In this document: piece by piece, positions 1,054 through 29,393 of the stretch
How the letters are laid out: each line of letters opens with the position of its first letter
How positions within the stretch are numbered: the first letter of the stretch is position 1
IMG/VR virus record: IMGVR_UViG_3300030109_005078
Span: 1 to 29,393 of that record
DNA from: a virus
Reading direction: 5' to 3' (one strand)
DNA: 29,393 nt
Notes under the pieces: generated by a model
What the model was told of the DNA's origin: nothing
What the model saw: the letters and a program-made list of their open reading frames with translations, nothing else
Databases searched by the model: none
Program-made: the position numbers and the translations under genes

Positions 1054-1780
1054 GGCAAAAAAACCAATAAAGAAAAAGAAAAAACCTAAAAATTATTATT
1101 TTAATCAGACAACTGAAAATGCTATTATTAGGTATAATAATACAGATGATGTTAATTTAAAAAATAAAATATACAATGAACATATTTCATATGCGTTTGA
1201 TAAGTTAGCAGAAAATATAATTCATACATTTAAGTTTTATTATTTTGATGTTCCATCAGAACAAGTAAAACACGAGGTGGTTTCATTTCTTGTTATGAAT
1301 ATGCATAAATTCAAAGAAGGTAAGGGAAAGGCATTTTCATATTTCAGTATTGTTGCTAAAAACTATTTGATTCTTCATAATAACAAAAATTATAAGAACT
1401 ATAAGATTCACGACAAAATGGAAGTTCTTGATTATGGTAGTAACATAAAAGAAAAACAGAATATTAGTGATGTCGCTGATTTCAATAAAGAATATGTGAA
1501 TGAGATGTTAGAGTATTGGGATAATAATCTAACTAATATATTTAGACGACAAAAAGATATATTAGTTGCTGACGCCGTATTAGAAATGTTTAGAAGGAGA
1601 GATAACATAGAGAACTTTAATAAAAAGGCTCTTTACATTCTTATCCGTGAAATGACAGGTTCTAAGACTCAACACATTACTCGTATTGTTAATTTGATGA
1701 AAAAGTATAATGCAAATCTAACAAAAGAGTTTCAAGAAACTGGCCAGTTAGATACAGCCAACACAGGATCATTCTTGTAA
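1046..1780 (+). CDS. 55: T4 gp55-like late-transcription sigma factor
   Basis: Resembles the T4 gp55 family, the sigma factor that directs host RNA polymerase to phage late promoters. After a very basic N-terminal tail come the family-like block NYYFNQTTENAI, a central helical region, and KFKEGKGKAFSYFSIVAKN (about residues 88-106), the counterpart of the sigma region-2 helix that T4 gp55 shares with sigma-70. The protein is 244 residues, somewhat longer than T4 gp55 (185 residues). I choose GTG at 1046 because AGGAG lies 7 bases upstream; an in-frame ATG at 1010 would overlap the previous gene by 44 bases and has no good ribosome binding site. It is the last gene before a strong terminator. 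Its presence predicts gp55-type late promoters for the downstream genes. Confidence 0.78.
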   Translation: MSKAKKPIKKKKKPKNYYFNQTTENAIIRYNNTDDVNLKNKIYNEHISYAFDKLAENIIHTFKFYYFDVPSEQVKHEVVSFLVMNMHKFKEGKGKAFSYFSIVAKNYLILHNNKNYKNYKIHDKMEVLDYGSNIKEKQNISDVADFNKEYVNEMLEYWDNNLTNIFRRQKDILVADAVLEMFRRRDNIENFNKKALYILIREMTGSKTQHITRIVNLMKKYNANLTKEFQETGQLDTANTGSFL

Positions 1781-1848
1781 CAAAATGAAACAAGTGTAAC
1801 ATTTTGTTCTAACATAATGATACACTTTTAAATAACTTCTAAAAAAAC

Positions 1849-1878
1849 AAAAACCTCATTTTCGAATGGGGTTTTTTT
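1849..1878 (+). terminator. Rho-independent terminator with UUCG loop
   Basis: A 12-base-pair stem (1849-1860 with 1865-1876, one G-U pair) capped by a TTCG tetraloop and followed by a T run. It closes the HD/gp55 operon. The A-rich 5' arm could give weak activity on the other strand too. Confidence 0.9.
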
Positions 1879-1965
1879 GTGCCCTTGTAACTTCATACAT
1901 ATAGACACTTAAAATTATTTTTATTTTTTTTCTCAAAATGGGGTAGTTTGGTATAGTTCTTGTAG

Positions 1966-1998
1966 TATATAAGTAGAGATAGATTATTCGAATCTATC
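1966..1998 (+). promoter_or_regulatory. Candidate late promoter plus 5' hairpin upstream of pilin genes
   Basis: TATAAGTA at 1968-1975 differs by one base from the T4 late promoter TATAAATA, and no good -35 hexamer lies at the right distance, as expected for a gp55-type promoter. Directly after it, GATAGATT (1978-1985) and AATCTATC (1991-1998) form a perfect 8-base-pair hairpin with loop ATTCG. Transcription starting near 1978-1980 would put this hairpin at the mRNA 5' end, about 16 bases before the AAAGGAG ribosome binding site of the first pilin-like gene. Confidence 0.5.
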
Positions 1999-2025
1999 AA
2001 AACAAAATAATAAAGGAGAACTGAG

Positions 2026-2694
2026 ATGTTCGAAACTATAAAAAAGATTGTAAAAAGGTTGAGTAAGAAAATCAAAAGTACTAATGGTAATTCACTCGCT
2101 GAATTTGCAGTAACAACCGCCATGATGGCAACACTAGCAACAACAGCCGCACCAAAATTTGGACAAGTTGGAGCAGGAGCTAAAGAAAAGAAAACAATGA
2201 ATAACATTGACAAAATTCTTACAGTTGCTAATAACTTTTATAACCAAACATTGTCTGAAGAAGGTAAAGGAAGATTTCCAGGACAAGAGAAGTATGATGT
2301 CGCTGTAGGTGGTATCACTTTAGCTGAAGGAGCTTCTACTGATGAAACTCTTGAAGCTTATGTTGAAACTGTCCTTGATGCAAAAGATTCCTATACATCA
2401 GAGTTAGGTGAGTTCGTTTATGTATTCTCACCAGCAGCAGATGACGATGACGCATTACAAGGTGATTGGATGAGTCTTGAAACATCAGTTGGTTACGATG
2501 GTAACTCTGAAGTTGGTGCTCTTGACTTCAAACAAGACTTTGGTAACAATGGTATGACAAGTCCATTTCAGGATGGTTCATACGCATACTTAGTAATACC
2601 AGGAAGTGGAAGTGGTACATCTGCACAAGCTCCTGTTCTTGTAGTAATAGATACTGAGAATCCATCTAAACTACATAAAACTTTAGTACCTTAA
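2026..2694 (+). CDS. Type IV pilin-like protein with unusual N-terminus
   Basis: A 222-residue protein with a basic 21-residue leader, then Gly21 followed by NSLAEFAVTTAMMATLA and more hydrophobic residues. A glycine at -1, glutamate at +5 and a roughly 20-residue hydrophobic helix match prepilin architecture (cleavage by the PilD-type peptidase, glutamate +5 used in assembly), although the +1 residue is Asn rather than Phe/Met and the sequence is not the standard FTLIEL. The C-terminal 170 residues are acidic, lack cysteine and look like a globular pilin head. AAAGGAG precedes the ATG. It is followed 27 bases later by a canonical prepilin, which supports the pilin reading. Alternative: a Flp/pseudopilin-like or unrelated signal-anchored surface protein. 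Confidence 0.65.
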   Translation: MFETIKKIVKRLSKKIKSTNGNSLAEFAVTTAMMATLATTAAPKFGQVGAGAKEKKTMNNIDKILTVANNFYNQTLSEEGKGRFPGQEKYDVAVGGITLAEGASTDETLEAYVETVLDAKDSYTSELGEFVYVFSPAADDDDALQGDWMSLETSVGYDGNSEVGALDFKQDFGNNGMTSPFQDGSYAYLVIPGSGSGTSAQAPVLVVIDTENPSKLHKTLVP

Positions 2695-2721
2695 TACACA
2701 ACAAAACCGAAAGGAAAAACA

Positions 2722-3162
2722 ATGAAGAACATATTAAAGAATACAAGTAAAGGTTTCACATTGATTGAATTAGTAATGGTTACAATCATATTGGGAATCT
2801 TAGCAGCTGTAGCAATTCCAAGATATCAACAAACGGTTGATAACGCAGAAGCAACTGCAGAGAAAGCATTTGTAGATATGGTATGGGCAGGAGTAGAACA
2901 AGAAGCTTCTGAAAGACTAACAGATGATGGACTTGAAGCATGGCCTTACAATCCACTAACAGTTATTGGTAGGAGTCGTAACATATCAGTTACATTATTC
3001 GAGGGAATACCTGATGAGGATAATGAATGGCAGTTTAGTGTAGATGCAGCTGGTGTACCAGCAATCTTTCATCATAGAAGAAATGACGAAATCTACTACT
3101 ACAAATACGATTCATTGACATTCGAGTTAGACGAAGAACCTACACTTTACACAAACGAATAA
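2722..3162 (+). CDS. Type IV prepilin / pseudopilin
   Basis: The N-terminus is textbook prepilin: short basic leader ending in Lys-Gly, cleavage before Phe12, then FTLIELVMVTIILGILAAVA with glutamate at +5, followed by IPRYQ. Prepilins are cleaved and N-methylated by a prepilin peptidase and assembled into type IV pili or type II secretion pseudopili in the inner membrane. The 146-residue length suits a minor pilin or pseudopilin; the globular part lacks cysteines and ends in an acidic tail. No peptidase, assembly ATPase or PilC-like platform gene is in the window, so assembly would need host machinery. AAAGGA lies 5 bases before the start. It is in tandem with the previous pilin-like gene. 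Confidence 0.9.
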   Translation: MKNILKNTSKGFTLIELVMVTIILGILAAVAIPRYQQTVDNAEATAEKAFVDMVWAGVEQEASERLTDDGLEAWPYNPLTVIGRSRNISVTLFEGIPDEDNEWQFSVDAAGVPAIFHHRRNDEIYYYKYDSLTFELDEEPTLYTNE

Positions 3163-3164
3163 TT

Positions 3165-3195
3165 AATAGGGGATTTGAAAATCATTTCCCCTATT
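3165..3195 (+). terminator. Hairpin after pilin genes, possible terminator
   Basis: AATAGGGGA (3165-3173) pairs perfectly with TCCCCTATT (3187-3195); the loop can form a further TGA/TCA pairing. What follows is T/A-rich (TATTATAAAG) rather than a clean T run, so it may be a partial terminator or an mRNA-stabilising 3' hairpin of the pilin transcript. The next ribosome binding site starts about 8 bases later. Confidence 0.6.
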
Positions 3196-3212
3196 TATTA
3201 TAAAGAGGTATT

Positions 3213-3653
3213 ATGAGATTTAAACTCACATCAGAAATACTGGAAATAATACTTATTTCCGCAATAGGTATAACTTTAGGGTTCGTGTTATTTAGTAAAG
3301 ACGAACCCATAAAAGTTAATGAACCACAACTTGAAAACTTCGATGAATACCCTTTGACTGCCTGGCAAACTTTAGATAGAAAAGGTGGTGAGTGTGTAAA
3401 GATAAAGTATCGTGTACAGAAAAATAAAACTCGACTTTATATGTACAACACTCAAGGTAAAAAAGTTCATCAGCAACAAATATCTTTAAGTCCACATAAG
3501 GATGGTAGAGATAGAGTAGAAACATATGTTTGGAAACTTTATCGAACCGAATGGACAGATAAGATACCACCTGGTGAATACTTGATTATAGTTGGAACAG
3601 ATCACGATAAATCAGCATCAAGAAATCTTACTCTTGAAATAGATATAATGTAA
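3213..3653 (+). CDS. Membrane-anchored extracytoplasmic protein, unknown
   Basis: A 146-residue protein with one N-terminal membrane segment (about residues 8-27) and an extracytoplasmic domain of about 115 residues predicted to be beta-rich. The C-terminal half, with VETYVWKLYRTEW and PPGEYLIIVGT, recalls the Ig-like repeats of FlgD or cell-surface sorting domains, but the match is only by pattern. The stop codon overlaps the start of a 39-residue microprotein, which in turn overlaps the next gene, so the three are likely made together. The position after two pilins suggests an envelope function, possibly pilus-related; this is inference. Confidence 0.65.
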   Translation: MRFKLTSEILEIILISAIGITLGFVLFSKDEPIKVNEPQLENFDEYPLTAWQTLDRKGGECVKIKYRVQKNKTRLYMYNTQGKKVHQQQISLSPHKDGRDRVETYVWKLYRTEWTDKIPPGEYLIIVGTDHDKSASRNLTLEIDIM

Positions 3654-3772
3654 TGTGGATGCCACTTGTTATAATAACATTAGGTGTTTGTCTTATATGG
3701 GAATTGGATGAAAGACAAACAATTAAGAAATACAAAAAGAAAAAGAAAATTGAACAACAGAGAAAAAAATGA
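3653..3772 (+). CDS. 39-residue membrane microprotein
   Basis: A short frame between two coupled genes: its ATG overlaps the preceding stop (TAATG) and its TGA overlaps the following ATG (ATGA). The translation starts MWMPLVIITLGVCLIWELDE and ends in a very basic tail rich in Lys/Arg. One membrane helix (about residues 4-16) with a positive cytoplasmic tail is a common layout for phage regulatory or anchoring microproteins. An internal ATG at codon 3 could also be the start. Perfect packing on both sides is the main evidence that it is real. Confidence 0.6.
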   Translation: MWMPLVIITLGVCLIWELDERQTIKKYKKKKKIEQQRKK

Positions 3773-4392
3773 GATACTTACCCTTATTATTTGTAAGTGT
3801 TATATATTCACAAGTAGACGAACAGGTATTGATAGACAACGATATACAACGAGTATCAGAGTTTAAGAGGGATGTTGCCTACGGACAAGATTGTGATGAT
3901 ACAGAATACAGAGATTACAAAGGTTCACCTGCTTGGAAAGGTTATGGTGGGTGGTTATCCGAATGTGATTCAATCCGTTCTGTAAACTTAGATAAAGAAT
4001 TTACCGAAAGGTCAAAGAAACGGGCACAAGAAAAGGCTATCCAAGATAGTATTGATATGGCATCAATTGATGAAATGGATTTAGATTTGGATGCTATGTG
4101 GGAAAATACGGTTTGGGAAGAAATACAGGATATAGCAGATACAGAAGTTTACGAAACCGAACAGATAACAGCAGTTGCTGGTGTTCGTGGTGCTGAAGCG
4201 GAAGATGAAGCACTTGACCATCTATATTACAGACGAAGTATGAAAGGTCTTGCTATAATGGATTTACAAAAGGCCTATGGTAAGTTAAAAATAAAAAGAG
4301 ATGAACTAATAAAAATAAATCCTCAACATCCAAAGATAGAAAAAGTTGACAACCTCTTGTCACAGCTACAGATTAAAATAAATAAATCATAA
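3769..4392 (+). CDS. Secreted protein with signal peptide, unknown
   Basis: A 207-residue protein beginning with a short signal peptide (MRYLPLLFVSVIYS, probable cleavage near residue 14). The mature part is acidic, contains three cysteines in its first half, an acidic helical middle, a conserved-looking block AGVRGAEAEDEALDHLYYRR (about residues 136-155) and a helical C-terminus. No named family recognised. There is no strong ribosome binding site, and the start overlaps the stop of the 39-residue gene, so translation probably depends on coupling. Likely periplasmic or outer-surface. The short signal ending in SQ is typical of Bacteroidota- or Marinimicrobia-like lineages, hinting that it was taken from a host. 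Confidence 0.65.
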   Translation: MRYLPLLFVSVIYSQVDEQVLIDNDIQRVSEFKRDVAYGQDCDDTEYRDYKGSPAWKGYGGWLSECDSIRSVNLDKEFTERSKKRAQEKAIQDSIDMASIDEMDLDLDAMWENTVWEEIQDIADTEVYETEQITAVAGVRGAEAEDEALDHLYYRRSMKGLAIMDLQKAYGKLKIKRDELIKINPQHPKIEKVDNLLSQLQIKINKS

Positions 4393-4440
4393 ATTAATAA
4401 AAAACTAACAAAAAAGTTGTGTTGTTTCTAAATGTTTAAG

Positions 4441-4474
4441 ATATTTATGTTTTGGAAGATGATGACACTTCCAA
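4441..4474 (+). promoter_or_regulatory. Candidate promoter box plus 5' hairpin before TonB-domain gene
   Basis: ATATTTAT at 4441-4448 is followed 3 bases later by TTGGAAG (4452-4458) and CTTCCAA (4468-4474), a perfect 7-base-pair hairpin with a 9-base loop. It lies in the 118-base gap before the gene at 4511, whose ribosome binding site is AAGGAG. The same box occurs before five other operons in the window. Confidence 0.4.
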
Positions 4475-4510
4475 CAAAATAGTAACTTATCATTTAAAAA
4501 GGAGATACAC

Positions 4511-4837
4511 ATGAAGCGACTAATGTGTTTGTTCTTAATGGGCCTGATTTCTGCTCAGACATTAGAAACATCACTACCAAAACCAAAAGAACCATTCGTT
4601 CTAACATACCACGACATTAGAGAAGATATACTTAAAAAGACGCCACAAGGAAAAATTACAGTAGATTTTTATATTAATGAGAGAGGGGAAGTAGAGAATC
4701 CAGTTATTAGGGATACTTTCAATATCGCTCTTAATGAAGTGGTGTTGGATAAAGTAAGACAAGCATCTTACTATCCAGCAGTTCAAAATGGACGACCAGT
4801 TCGAATCAAATTCACATTACCAATAGTATTTAAATAA
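4511..4837 (+). CDS. Exported TonB C-terminal domain protein
   Basis: A 108-residue protein with a signal peptide (MKRLMCLFLMGLISA, cleavage before Gln) directly followed by a TonB C-terminal fold: ITVDFYINERGEVENPVI, a helix with LDKVRQASYYPAVQNGRPV, and the closing strand RIKFTLPIVFK. Pattern and length (about 80 residues) fit the TonB_C family, which links the inner-membrane energy complex to outer-membrane receptors. The usual N-terminal anchor and proline-rich linker are absent, so it would be a free periplasmic domain and could compete for TonB-dependent receptors or act as a structural module. Strong AAGGAG ribosome binding site; co-directional with the next membrane gene. Confidence 0.78.
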   Translation: MKRLMCLFLMGLISAQTLETSLPKPKEPFVLTYHDIREDILKKTPQGKITVDFYINERGEVENPVIRDTFNIALNEVVLDKVRQASYYPAVQNGRPVRIKFTLPIVFK

Positions 4838-4847
4838 CGGAGGAAAA

Positions 4848-5165
4848 ATGTTAGAATACTTTTTGATGGGAGTTTTGGCACCTATCTTTCTGAATCTTAT
4901 GCACCTATGTGTAGGAATATATGTAGTAATTCAAAGAGGAAATATGATGTCATTGGGATTTTCAGGTATGGGATTTATAACCAAAACCATAGGGATGTTA
5001 TTTCTCACTTGGTTGGGTGTGAGTAAATTAGGATTGGATTATCAAATATTCATTCCACTACTTTCATTCTTTTGGTTCTTTACTCATATCGTGGAAGCCT
5101 TTGTGATTAATCATTATATGAAAGAAAATGTACCAAAATTTCTACAAGACTTGCAAATTAATTAA
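4848..5165 (+). CDS. Three-helix membrane protein, weakly AtpI-like
   Basis: A 105-residue, strongly hydrophobic protein with about three membrane helices (near residues 3-28, 35-60 and 65-90) and a short charged C-terminus. The segment around KTIGMLFLTWLGV and FFTHIVEAF vaguely recalls ATP synthase subunit I proteins, but I would not name it on that basis. GGAGG precedes the ATG and the gap to the TonB-domain gene is only 10 bases. Probably an inner-membrane protein made with its neighbours. Confidence 0.6.
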   Translation: MLEYFLMGVLAPIFLNLMHLCVGIYVVIQRGNMMSLGFSGMGFITKTIGMLFLTWLGVSKLGLDYQIFIPLLSFFWFFTHIVEAFVINHYMKENVPKFLQDLQIN

Positions 5166-5178
5166 AGGATAATAAAAA

Positions 5179-5265
5179 ATGGATATTACATTAACAATTG
5201 GGTTGATAACATCTGTCTTTATATTAGGACTAACATTTGTCCTATATTGGGATGATATAAAATAA
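5179..5265 (+). CDS. 28-residue membrane microprotein
   Basis: A short frame with AAGGA 8-9 bases before ATG, encoding MDITLTIGLITSVFILGLTF followed by VLYWDDIK. It is almost entirely one membrane helix with an acidic C-terminal end. It sits 13 bases after the three-helix membrane gene and ends 5 bases before the terminator stem, so it is the last gene of the cassette. Position, ribosome binding site and hydrophobic pattern support it, but such short frames can be chance. Confidence 0.5.
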   Translation: MDITLTIGLITSVFILGLTFVLYWDDIK

Positions 5266-5270
5266 GCAAA

Positions 5271-5299
5271 AAAAAGGGGAACAATACGTTCCCCTTTTT
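5271..5299. terminator. Bidirectional rho-independent terminator
   Basis: A 12-base-pair perfect stem, AAAAAGGGGAAC (5271-5282) with GTTCCCCTTTTT (5288-5299), and a 5-base loop. The A run on the left and T run on the right let it terminate transcription in both directions. It separates the plus-strand accessory cassette from the converging minus-strand gene at 5316-5537. Confidence 0.92.
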
Positions 5300-5315
5300 C
5301 ATTATCCGATAATAG

Positions 5316-5537
5316 CTATTTACGAAATAAACCCACCAACACCAATAATGCGACTAATCCAGCGAAACCGGATTCGCCGAAGTTATTTATGATTGATGTC
5401 AGGTTACCAATAACATTTACGCCAAAGATACCACTCCCAAACAATACTTCGCTTACAGCTCCGATTGCTATGAAAGAGGCGAGTAGTTGAGCGATGTCGT
5501 CTACCCAACCTTTGACTAATGTGATGACTTCCTTCAT
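5316..5537 (-). CDS. Two-helix small membrane protein, possible holin
   Basis: The only minus-strand gene I support. It encodes 73 residues with an amphipathic N-terminus (KEVITLVKGWVDDIAQLL), a hydrophobic segment (about 17-36), a Gly/Asn-rich turn with FGSGIFG and NNFGESG, and a second hydrophobic segment (about 55-70) ending in FRK. Size, two helices and a basic C-terminal end resemble class II holins; a VirB2/TrbC-like pilin shape is an alternative. GGGAG lies about 9 bases before the start. It has its own candidate promoter and 5' hairpin and ends at the bidirectional terminator. No endolysin is nearby, so the holin idea is weak. Confidence 0.65.
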   Translation of the reverse strand: MKEVITLVKGWVDDIAQLLASFIAIGAVSEVLFGSGIFGVNVIGNLTSIINNFGESGFAGLVALLVLVGLFRK

Positions 5538-5603
5538 TAGTTATCTCCCGTTGTTTTTTCTTATCATTTAACAAAAAAGGGATATTTAACTTCCGTTTTC
5601 TGT

Positions 5604-5658
5604 GTCGAATAAAATCCGACATATATAATTATAGTATATACATATTTTTTGTTAGCAA
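5604..5658 (-). promoter_or_regulatory. Candidate promoter and 5' hairpin of the minus-strand gene
   Basis: On the minus strand, TATAAT (5633-5628) is preceded 19 bases upstream by TTGCTA (5658-5653), a usable -10/-35 pair with a slightly long spacer. Starting about 7 bases after the -10 box, GTCGGAT (5620-5614) pairs with ATTCGAC (5610-5604) around a 3-base loop, so the hairpin would lie at the very 5' end of the mRNA. Confidence 0.45.
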
Positions 5659-5687
5659 TATATATGCACTGATTTTTCAGTTAGTTA

Positions 5688-5709
5688 ATATTTATTTATG
5701 AGTTATAAT
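5688..5709 (+). promoter_or_regulatory. Candidate promoter of the baseplate operon
   Basis: ATATTTAT at 5688-5695 and TATAAT at 5704-5709 lie 35-56 bases before the first baseplate-block gene in the divergent gap. Either could be the -10 element. No clear hairpin follows. The rest of the 206-base gap (5538-5743) holds the minus-strand promoter region and no gene. Confidence 0.4.
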
Positions 5710-5743
5710 ATCTATTTTTAATGACAATGCAAGGAAAATCAAG

Positions 5744-6136
5744 ATGAGTCAAGATTACGAATTATTTGAGGGTAAATCACTATCATCATTATTCAAGGAT
5801 ATTTACGATAATTCCAAACACAATAAAGAACAACTTGAGATATTAGTAAAAGAAGTTGCTGGATATATCAAGGATGGGGATATGGCTATTCAACTAATCC
5901 CTATGATAAAAGAATACTTGGAAATAAATGTAAAGAATGATGAACAACTTGTCAAGTTGGCAACAGTTGTACAGAGATTAATTGCCGCTGAAGGTAAGGG
6001 TGGTAGTGAATCCGAGTTCGGTTTATCTGAAAAAGAAAAGGAACAATTACTCACGAGTATAGATGATGTGGTTGTAGACTTACAAAAAAAATCGGATAAT
6101 CTTACACAAGATATAAAATCAGTTAAGGAAAATTAA
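5744..6136 (+). CDS. Conserved helical phage protein ahead of the gp5-like hub
   Basis: A 130-residue, probably all-helical protein beginning with YELFEGKSLSSLFKDIYDNSK, then a middle with PMIKEYLEINVKNDEQLVKLA, and a coiled-coil-like acidic C-terminus. I do not recognise a named family, though this style of protein is common beside baseplate genes of marine T4-like phages. AAGGA precedes the ATG, and its stop overlaps the start of the gp5-like gene (TAATG), indicating coupled expression. It is the first gene of the baseplate operon; an assembly-factor or minor structural role is plausible but unproven. Confidence 0.7.
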   Translation: MSQDYELFEGKSLSSLFKDIYDNSKHNKEQLEILVKEVAGYIKDGDMAIQLIPMIKEYLEINVKNDEQLVKLATVVQRLIAAEGKGGSESEFGLSEKEKEQLLTSIDDVVVDLQKKSDNLTQDIKSVKEN

Positions 6137-23606: not shown

Positions 23607-24044
23607 ATGCCAGTAACACAAAATATAGCACCAGTTACTATTAGTTTTTCTAATACATCACAAGGAGACGGATTATCATATCTTTGGAACTTTGGTGATG
23701 GTGGAACTTCTACTGATGCAAATCCAACACACACATTTCAGGCAGGTGCGTGGGAAGTAACATTAACTGTAACAAATGAAAATGGAACTGATGTGAGTTC
23801 TGCAGTAATAGTTGCAACTATGCCAACCCAACAACAAAATATACAAGATCCACCACCGGGATTTAGTGCGAATGATGGTCCTCCTCCTGGATTTGTAAAC
23901 CAGCAGCAACAGCAGCAACAACAACAGCAACAACAGCAACAGCAGCAACAGCAGCAACAACAGAATCCTAATAACAATCAACAAACATTGACAGGACCCC
24001 CACCAGGAGTAATGACAGGTGGAGCAGGTGGGTTTAATCCATAA
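23607..24044 (+). CDS. PKD-domain protein with 21-glutamine tract
   Basis: A 145-residue protein. Residues 1-73 form most of a PKD (Ig-like) domain with the hallmark LSYLWNFGDGG, NPTHTFQAGAWEVTLTVTN. Then come proline-rich repeats, PPPGFSANDG and PPPGFVN, an uninterrupted run of 21 glutamines (residues 99-119, codons CAG and CAA mixed), NPNNNQQ, and a third repeat, GPPPGV, before a Gly-rich end. PKD domains mediate surface protein contacts. AAGGAG overlaps the upstream stop, and a TAG directly precedes the ATG in frame, so it is independently started, not a simple extension of paralogue 4. Probably a fibre-tip or surface-displayed protein. Confidence 0.75.
   Translation: MPVTQNIAPVTISFSNTSQGDGLSYLWNFGDGGTSTDANPTHTFQAGAWEVTLTVTNENGTDVSSAVIVATMPTQQQNIQDPPPGFSANDGPPPGFVNQQQQQQQQQQQQQQQQQQQQQNPNNNQQTLTGPPPGVMTGGAGGFNP
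23901..23963 (+). repeat. CAG/CAA polyglutamine repeat
   Basis: Sixty-three bases made only of CAG and CAA codons, giving 21 glutamines in the PKD-domain protein. The codons are mixed, so it is not a pure trinucleotide array, but runs such as CAGCAGCAA recur. Such repeats can change length by slippage or recombination without breaking the frame. Confidence 0.95.
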
Positions 24045-27769: not shown

Positions 27770-28120
27770 GTGGACAACCAAACACAAGGTCTTGTCGAGG
27801 GGTTGATAGGACAATATGGTTGGTTATTTATTGTGGGTGTAATAACACTCATCTTTCAAAATACCATAAGAGAGGCAGTAGATGGTTTCATGGTCTTTTT
27901 GGGTAATGATTACAACGAAGATGATGTCGTTGAAGTTGATGGAGAACCAGGAAGAATAGTAAGAGTGAGTATGTGGAAAACTGTATTCTTTATCTATCAT
28001 GTAATTGATGGTAAAGTTGTCGGTGGTTCAAAGTTAGTAGTGGCAAATTCAAAGTTGAAAGATTTGAAAATAGAAAAACCATTAGCTAATCTTGATTTAT
28101 CTAAATATTCAAAAAAATAA
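27770..28120 (+). CDS. One-helix MscS-like protein
   Basis: A 116-residue protein starting at GTG, with AGGAG 7-8 bases upstream. One membrane helix (about residues 16-33) is followed by a beta domain resembling the MscS pore-proximal domain: NDYNEDDVVEVDGEPGRIVR, then WKTVFF, then KLVVANSKLKDLKIEKPL, matching the usual sequence of GD-x-V, G-x-V, a Thr-containing strand and a V(V/I)xNS loop. MscS channels gate under membrane tension and assemble as heptamers; a normal MscS has three helices and about 280 residues, so this is a minimal version. It could modulate host channels or form a small pore. The fold call is by motif only. Confidence 0.62.
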   Translation: MDNQTQGLVEGLIGQYGWLFIVGVITLIFQNTIREAVDGFMVFLGNDYNEDDVVEVDGEPGRIVRVSMWKTVFFIYHVIDGKVVGGSKLVVANSKLKDLKIEKPLANLDLSKYSKK

Positions 28121-28171: not shown

Positions 28172-29393
28172 ATGAAAAAATTATTGATTGGTCTGTTAAT
28201 TAGTGTAAATTTATTATCAGCCGAAAATGAACTTTGGAAATTTTTTAAGTATTCGACTGCATACGCAAGTTTCAGTTTGAATGCACCAAGACACCAAGAT
28301 GATAGGTTTGCTATTATAGGTGGATTGAGTACAGGACAATTACAAGTCGGTAGAACCGAAAGAGAATTAAAACCTGATTTTCAAACATCATTTGGATTAA
28401 GAAAAATTGGTAGATTTAATTATGAACCAAAACGAGGAGTTAAAAATGCTGGTGTTGGTGGAACTTGGTATGATGGTTCAGAATCAAATGCTAACGAAAG
28501 TGCTACATTTGGTCCTGTTCAAGGATGGGAGTATTTGATTAAATGGTCGGAAGGTCGTCAATGGGGTAACGAATATTTAAATCAAGAGTATTGGGTAAGA
28601 TATACAAGTGATTGGTGGATGGCTAAAATAGGTTGGACAGAGTTAGGATTGGAAGAACTTGAATATGGTCAAGGTGAATTAAGATTTAAATGGACACCAC
28701 CTATTGTAGATGACAAAATAAATTTAAGTATTGGTGTAAAGCATAGACAACATCCTGTATATGGATTTGACGCTATGGTTTTAGATACAACTTGGTACAA
28801 AGGTTCTTGGTGGAATTTTGCAGAAGATGCCTTTGGTATTGATGATAACGCTTGGTTTACTGAAGAATACCATAATGATGGTAATGGTAATATTGACCAA
28901 GACATTCAACTATATGAAATAGATCCTATAACTGGTGAGTTAAGACCAATAGAAGGTGGTGGTCCTTTTTGGAATGATGATGGTAGATTTCTCGGTGTTG
29001 ATTGGTTGTGGAGAGACCAAAATGGTAAAATATTTGCATATACAGATAGAGAATATTTCTTATATCACTTTCCAAGAATGTTAGAAAAATATATTGGTGG
29101 TGTTAAACAAGAAATAGGATATCAGAGAGAAACTTCAATAGTATTGGGAGCTGATTTTTATCATTATGATGATTATTGGTGGTTACATGCTTGGGGTAAC
29201 TGGTTACCATATCATTTCGGACATGATAAATACTCGTATCATAACGGAGCACATTATCAAACACATTTAGAAGAAGGTGGTGAACCAAATGAATTTGAAT
29301 TTAAAGACGCGATGTGGCATAGTTGGCATGACTATGACTTTGGTGCTATCTTTGGTGTGAAGATTAAGGAGAACTTAGGTGTGTTCGCAGAAG
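28172..29393 (+). CDS. Large exported protein, 3'-truncated, possibly outer-membrane
   Basis: The frame opens with MKKLLIGLLISVNLLSA, a signal peptide, and stays open to the right edge (407 codons), so it is 3'-partial. GGAG lies 6 bases before the ATG. The mature part is very rich in Trp, Tyr, Gly and acidic residues with alternating patterns (WEYLIKWSEGRQWGNEYL, YWVRYTSDWWMAKIGW, LRFKWTPP, INLSIGVKHRQHP), which recall strands of an outer-membrane beta-barrel, though a soluble beta protein is also possible. Function unknown. Phage-encoded exported barrels could alter receptors or exclude superinfecting phages, but nothing here proves that. Confidence 0.7.
   Translation, partial: MKKLLIGLLISVNLLSAENELWKFFKYSTAYASFSLNAPRHQDDRFAIIGGLSTGQLQVGRTERELKPDFQTSFGLRKIGRFNYEPKRGVKNAGVGGTWYDGSESNANESATFGPVQGWEYLIKWSEGRQWGNEYLNQEYWVRYTSDWWMAKIGWTELGLEELEYGQGELRFKWTPPIVDDKINLSIGVKHRQHPVYGFDAMVLDTTWYKGSWWNFAEDAFGIDDNAWFTEEYHNDGNGNIDQDIQLYEIDPITGELRPIEGGGPFWNDDGRFLGVDWLWRDQNGKIFAYTDREYFLYHFPRMLEKYIGGVKQEIGYQRETSIVLGADFYHYDDYWWLHAWGNWLPYHFGHDKYSYHNGAHYQTHLEEGGEPNEFEFKDAMWHSWHDYDFGAIFGVKIKENLGVFAE

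Follow-up and report, generated by a model that had tools for sequence, protein, structure and literature searches.

The DNA analysed here, called the window, is a 29.4-kb virus fragment with T4-type baseplate genes (IMG/VR record IMGVR_UViG_3300030109_005078, positions 1 to 29,393). Two pilin genes and six genes for exported or membrane proteins lie ahead of its baseplate operon, together with several sequence elements that may control them:

1776 to 1824, plus strand: three copies of the palindrome TGTAACAnnnTGTTACA, 2 mismatches each, a putative enhancer for the host pilus regulator
1947 to 1966, plus strand: sigma-54-like promoter TTTGGTATAGTTCTTGTAGT; the -24 GG is kept and -12 reads TTGT, as in some host copies
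2026 to 2694, plus strand: pilA, a major-pilin-like protein with prepilin site G^NSLAE and homologs in Marinimicrobia pilus operons
2722 to 3162, plus strand: pilB, a GspG-like second pilin with site G^FTLIE and an N_methyl domain (PF07963), 42% identical to the host second pilin
3165 to 3195, plus strand: AATAGGGGA/TCCCCTATT hairpin between pilB and g1, a possible attenuator judged from sequence, also in several relatives
3213 to 3653, plus strand: g1, a membrane-anchored Ig-like protein (N-terminal TM helix and Ig-like domain), apparently virus-only
3653 to 3772, plus strand: mic1, a 39-aa single-TM microprotein with a basic tail and homologs across viral contigs
3769 to 4392, plus strand: g2, a secreted protein with a signal peptide and a C-terminal domain homologous to a host pilus-cluster protein
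4441 to 4450, plus strand: a tentative late-promoter-like element ATATTTATGT before tonB; a similar element precedes the baseplate operon
4511 to 4837, plus strand: tonB, an exported TonB C-terminal domain (TonB_C PF03544, 1.2e-11)
4848 to 5165, plus strand: TM3, a three-helix membrane protein, found at other sites in many related viruses
5179 to 5265, plus strand: mic2, a 28-aa single-TM microprotein, found in three relatives
5270 to 5300, no strand: bidirectional terminator with a 14-bp stem

An earlier note, made from the letters of this DNA, had read the six consecutive genes from 3213 to 5265 as one tightly packed cassette ended by a strong terminator. All six open reading frames are present at those coordinates; g1, mic1, g2, tonB and TM3 each have homologs across many viral contigs, so these five are genes and not chance frames, and mic2 has its three relatives. 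The terminator at the end of the cassette was likewise confirmed. Packing is tight within g1-mic1-g2, where mic1 overlaps g1 by 1 base and g2 by 4 bases, and within tonB-TM3-mic2, but not between these sets, which lie 118 bp apart, with a possible separate promoter in the gap. The six-gene cassette as a single unit was rejected, and its boundaries had to be redrawn: the core unit is pilA-pilB-g1-mic1-g2 (2026 to 4392, or 1776 to 4392 with its control region), to which the pilins belong, and tonB, TM3 and mic2 (4511 to 5265) form a second set. The two sets are independent because TM3, mic2 and at times tonB sit elsewhere in relatives. Taken more broadly, the core consists of pilA, one to three further pilins, g1, mic1 and g2.

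Viral contigs were scanned with g1, TM3 and pilA as queries and then with g1 as a profile (2.9 million contigs), and more than 80 contigs were found to carry module genes. pilB follows pilA in 53 of 53 viral loci, g2 in 48, g1 in 39 and tonB in 19; the loci counted are those with at least 3.5 kb downstream of pilA, and some are near-copies, so that the counts are not independent. In these scans g1 was seen only in such pilA loci or in short fragments, and the mic1 peptide family also occurs between or after pilins in L167 and L169. Only viruses closely related to the window have TM3 beside the core; in others it stands elsewhere. The core genes are under purifying selection, with dN/dS of 0.14 for pilA, 0.18 for pilB, 0.24 for g2 and 0.33 for g1.

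Of the two pilins, pilB matches N_methyl (PF07963) at 3.3e-7, above the cut-off, and its G11 and E16 are invariant. pilA has no Pfam or NCBIfam match and gives weak pilin matches in the PDB (E 0.007-0.07; MshA 0.007, geopilin domain 1 0.045). Its prepilin peptidase site, G21^NSLAE26, is invariant in 23 viral sequences and is followed by a hydrophobic alpha1-N segment rich in Ala and Thr, and a pilA homolog is encoded in a type IV pilus operon of Marinimicrobia.

That operon points to the source of the core. When 84,980 species genomes were searched with the pilA profile, the homologs recovered were 38-61% identical; most come from genomes titled Marinimicrobia or Neomarinimicrobiota and the rest from MAGs with uninformative or doubtful titles. 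Host matches of full length are 38-49% identical to pilA, and the 61% match is L075, a probable viral contig. The pilA locus of L076 encodes PilD, the PilB ATPase, an NtrC-family regulator, PilC, pilA, a second pilin, minor pilins, PilM/N, PilO and PilP, names that, except for the regulator, were assigned from sequence and order. The third pilin of some viruses is 40-43% identical to the third host pilin, and since the two are orthologous the host order of pilA, second and third pilin is kept in viruses. In the pilA tree the window falls in a long-stem virus-only clade (100/100) and other viral pilins fall among host ones; these separate places therefore imply more than one transfer. As a side observation, the host pilus clusters of L082, L080, L083, L084 and L087 contain two to five diverged pilA copies in tandem, many of them with a sigma-54 promoter of their own.

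Another element shared with the host is g2. Of 121 genomes of the order, 27 encode a match to its C-terminal domain, as a rule a single one; two occur in G196 and, as a fragment, in G152. In G001 the host homolog lies downstream of PilO, PilP, PilQ, a cyclase, an FG-GAP surface protein and a PorV-TPR protein, and G002 has the same order; this position is seen where the contig reaches that far, and the homolog adjoins the same PorV-TPR gene in all loci read. The viral g2 has in addition a Cys-containing, virus-specific N-terminal domain and lacks the last approximately 27 residues, the TPR end, of the host protein. Its AlphaFold model is poor (pLDDT 66).

No host counterpart was found for the other two core genes, and g1 and mic1 appear to be virus-only. 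The model of g1 shows one N-terminal TM helix and a 7-strand Ig-like domain (AlphaFold pLDDT 85), for which a fold search returned generic Ig-like matches only (E about 1e-3). A host origin of g1 was considered and rejected: 199 Marinimicrobia genomes hold no convincing match to it, and 17 of them carry pilA. The sole g1 match there has an E-value of 0.003 and lies in a frame with 8 stops. An HMM comparison of g1 with the FlgD-like domain of the host FG-GAP protein gave no match, PDB sequence searches with g1 and g2 gave none, and no informative homolog of g1 or mic1 was found.

The homologies together suggest that viruses took the core, a type IV pilus module, from Marinimicrobia, which, on the strength of homologous genes, are probably the hosts. 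The Marinimicrobia pilus cluster (e.g., L076/L116) shares with the module pilA, the second and in some viruses the third pilin in the same order, as well as the g2 homolog and the type of promoter and enhancer. Unlike that cluster, the module lacks PilB/C/D/M-Q and adds g1 and mic1, and it joins genes that are 20 kb apart in the host. An identical block in host genomes, which the earlier note had named as the sign of an assembly error, is absent; hosts carry diverged homologs over about 20 kb of the pilus cluster, and because these are diverged and spread, assembly error is excluded.

The control region also resembles that of the host genes. A sigma-54-type promoter (e.g., TTGGCACAGATATTGCT) precedes nearly every pilA copy of the hosts, TGTAACAnnnTGTTACA lies upstream of most, and viral pilA copies carry both. 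The copies of TGTAACAnnnTGTTACA in the window lie at 1776-1792, 1795-1811 and 1808-1824, where all window sites with up to 2 mismatches fall. At the same threshold the 6 kb upstream of viral pilA hold 19 sites, versus 3 in 333 kb elsewhere, an enrichment of about 350-fold; the motif was defined after viewing viral and host sequences, and the shuffle and elsewhere counts are thus controls and not a blind test. A matrix made from host pilA promoters only (L075, titled Alphaproteobacteria MAG, was left out of this set) ranks the 1947-1966 site 2nd of 58,748 window positions, and in 23 of 23 loci it ranks the viral site 1-9 among 9,190-58,748 positions. A sigma-70 promoter scan remained at chance level.

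Compared with the sigma-54 pattern (GG at -24, GC at -12, 12 nt apart), the viral spacing is exact and the GG is found in most copies. At -12 the window reads GT, as some host copies do, and L011 reads GC. Most viral promoters show the variant TGGTACAnTTnTTGTAC, with TGGTAC..TTGTAC where the host has TGGCAY..TTGCT, and because of this difference the use of RpoN at viral promoters stays putative. The viral variant TGGTACAnTTnTTGTACTATATAGG, palindromic around GTACA/TGTAC, precedes pilA in nearly all viral loci (in the window at 1947-1966), even where the viral pilA groups with host pilA. RpoN is present in 8 of 9 host genomes. The regulator of the host operon belongs to the NtrC family, with a Sigma54_activat domain and a GSFTGA loop, and is the putative factor acting through the TGTAACAnnnTGTTACA sites.

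The core is mobile, with at least four genomic contexts. In one it stands between a late-sigma-like gene and the baseplate; in a second it follows several exported proteins together with a thioredoxin and a possible outer-membrane protein; in a third it precedes gp32, RecA, helicase and class II RNR genes, and in a fourth a possible MscS-like gene. The site occupied in the window lacks the core in L061, L064, L065, L068 and L071, which hold other cargo (a DNA methylase in L064) or nothing there. Two cultured phages examined for an empty site (L242 and L243), Flavobacterium phage immuto and Microcystis phage Mel-JY01, have the flanking homologs 33 and 5 bases apart. Since relatives and cultured phages lack the block at this site, the block with its control region is an insertion, a point that the earlier note had proposed to check for its cassette. 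Scattering in relatives, which the same note had set against its reading, affects TM3 and sometimes tonB, but not the core.

The surroundings of the core gave several further observations. By eye, the protein encoded at 1010-1780 is similar to gp55, the T4 late sigma factor; it has no family match. The gap between this putative late sigma gene and the baseplate (1780-5744 in the window; also L061, L064, L065, L068 and L071) is a cargo hotspot, occupied by the pilin module, a DNA methylase, other ORFs or a tRNA-like sequence, or left empty. On the minus strand, 5316-5537 encodes a strongly conserved 73-aa membrane protein, found both at the baseplate site and in another context (L011, L027). 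Among the tail genes lies a PKD-like protein in which about 20 glutamines follow one another (23607-24044). A 116-aa protein at 27770-28120 resembles part of the MscS channel, and its L027 homolog has a weak MS_channel_2nd match (E 0.025). After the tail genes, a frame open at its end (28172-29392) encodes an exported protein of at least 407 aa, possibly an outer-membrane protein; related genes stand upstream of the pilin core in L012, L015, L017 and L044. Another neighbour of the core is a viral POPDC-like membrane protein of the cyclic-nucleotide-binding type (L016:2904-3554).

Probably, then, the core is a virus-borne host-pilus module that is read by host RpoN and the pilus regulator and feeds the host pilus machine. 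After entry, the RpoN holoenzyme and the NtrC-family regulator of the pilus cluster would activate the viral operon in the same way as host pilA. The prepilin peptidase of the host would process the viral pilins, which would enter the filaments of host pili, and g2, as a modified pilus-cluster protein, would act with g1 and mic1 on the assembly machine at the inner membrane and in the periplasm. It is possible, though we hold this with less than even confidence, that the viral operon replaces host pilus subunits during infection, with g1, mic1 and the remodelled g2 taking part, which would be subunit replacement and not inhibition. More tentative still is the payoff, of which superinfection exclusion may be the likeliest by analogy. 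The host-envelope modification island of the earlier note thus survives as a mobile, non-virion envelope module, and its generic function gives way to a putative role at the pilus.

Jamming of the pilus in a dominant-negative manner is somewhat unlikely: viral pilins and the truncated g2 would upset the subunit balance or clog the platform, leaving pili unmade or unretracted. The loss of the last approximately 27 residues from g2 fits such an effect, the ratio of minor to major pilins controls pilus dynamics in Vibrio cholerae (PMC13249403), and known phage proteins block pili and exclude other phages (PMC11436027), although a small inhibitor would be simpler than two to four conserved pilins with accessory proteins. 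Because published pilus-acting phage proteins exclude and pilin ratios control dynamics, exclusion or jamming would be the likely payoff.

The main rival to both is maintenance, an unlikely reading in which the viral pilins would sustain pilus function as transcription of host genes breaks down, and attachment or uptake could go on throughout infection; they would then serve as auxiliary genes and not alter the pilus. The strength of purifying selection on pilA, the retained host-type switch and a host that supplies the rest of the machine would all suit this role. However, the main viral pilA clade stands on a long branch away from host pilA, and g2 has its virus-specific domain and shortened C-terminus, so neither is a plain copy.

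Two other explanations are very improbable. A virion or tail-associated structure merely using a pilin-like fold would account for the baseplate genes adjoining the module in the window, but elsewhere the module adjoins gp32, RecA and RNR genes or other exported proteins, which bears out the earlier note's view that these are not virion genes, and viral relatives without it keep intact baseplate operons. Neutral cargo in an insertion hotspot, with no role in infection, would agree with the methylase, other ORFs or empty site of relatives, but dN/dS is well below 1 and the core with its control region is retained in more than 80 contigs.

In the second set, tonB may bear on entry by another route. 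The gene encodes 108 aa, a short signal peptide followed by the domain, with neither an inner-membrane anchor nor a proline-rich spacer; host TonBs have about 200-230 aa. The count of the ATATTTATGT-type late-promoter motif in the window is not above chance. Cor of phages phi80 and N15 inactivates FhuA, giving superinfection exclusion at TonB-dependent receptors (review PMC11436027), and by analogy tonB may likewise hinder TonB-dependent entry. Unlike Cor, it is a TonB C-terminal domain on its own, and it does not depend on the pilin core. On a related subject, L022:18673-20421 and its cluster mates in L014, L032 and L036 encode a TonB-dependent receptor plug with a CarboxypepD_reg domain; viruses of the L022 type have the gp32/RecA/RNR context, and some carry both the receptor and the TonB domain.

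To return to the host-pilus module, its closest functional parallels are Tip, Aqs1, Gp21 and Pf pVII, pilus-acting phage proteins that give superinfection exclusion (review PMC11436027). They share its class of host target and plausibly its payoff, and the comparison is by function alone: each is a single protein that lowers or blocks pilus assembly, whereas the module supplies pilins and a pilus-cluster homolog. Scattered pilin genes of other phages, among them Vibrio phage 033B and phages of Acinetobacter and Aeromonas (PHROG 3433, annotated as pilin under moron), share the N-terminal prepilin signal. In a set of 50,697 phage records no counterpart of pilA, g1 or TM3 was found, and the 8 records matched by pilB align to its N-terminal part only, over 26-43% of its length. 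A literature search, covering few subscription papers, gave no precedent for phage-encoded pilins or for pilins of Marinimicrobia viruses.

The module belongs with phage-borne host genes that act on the host surface. Phages are known to switch type IV pili off; if the proposed reading is true, a conserved pilin operon accompanied by regulatory DNA of the host would give a widespread group of marine viruses another means of controlling a host organelle. g1, mic1 and g2 are testable proteins without an assigned role. The finding would tie a large group of uncultured marine viruses to the abundant uncultured phylum Marinimicrobia/SAR406, and it would point to type IV pili as central in the interaction between these viruses and Marinimicrobia.
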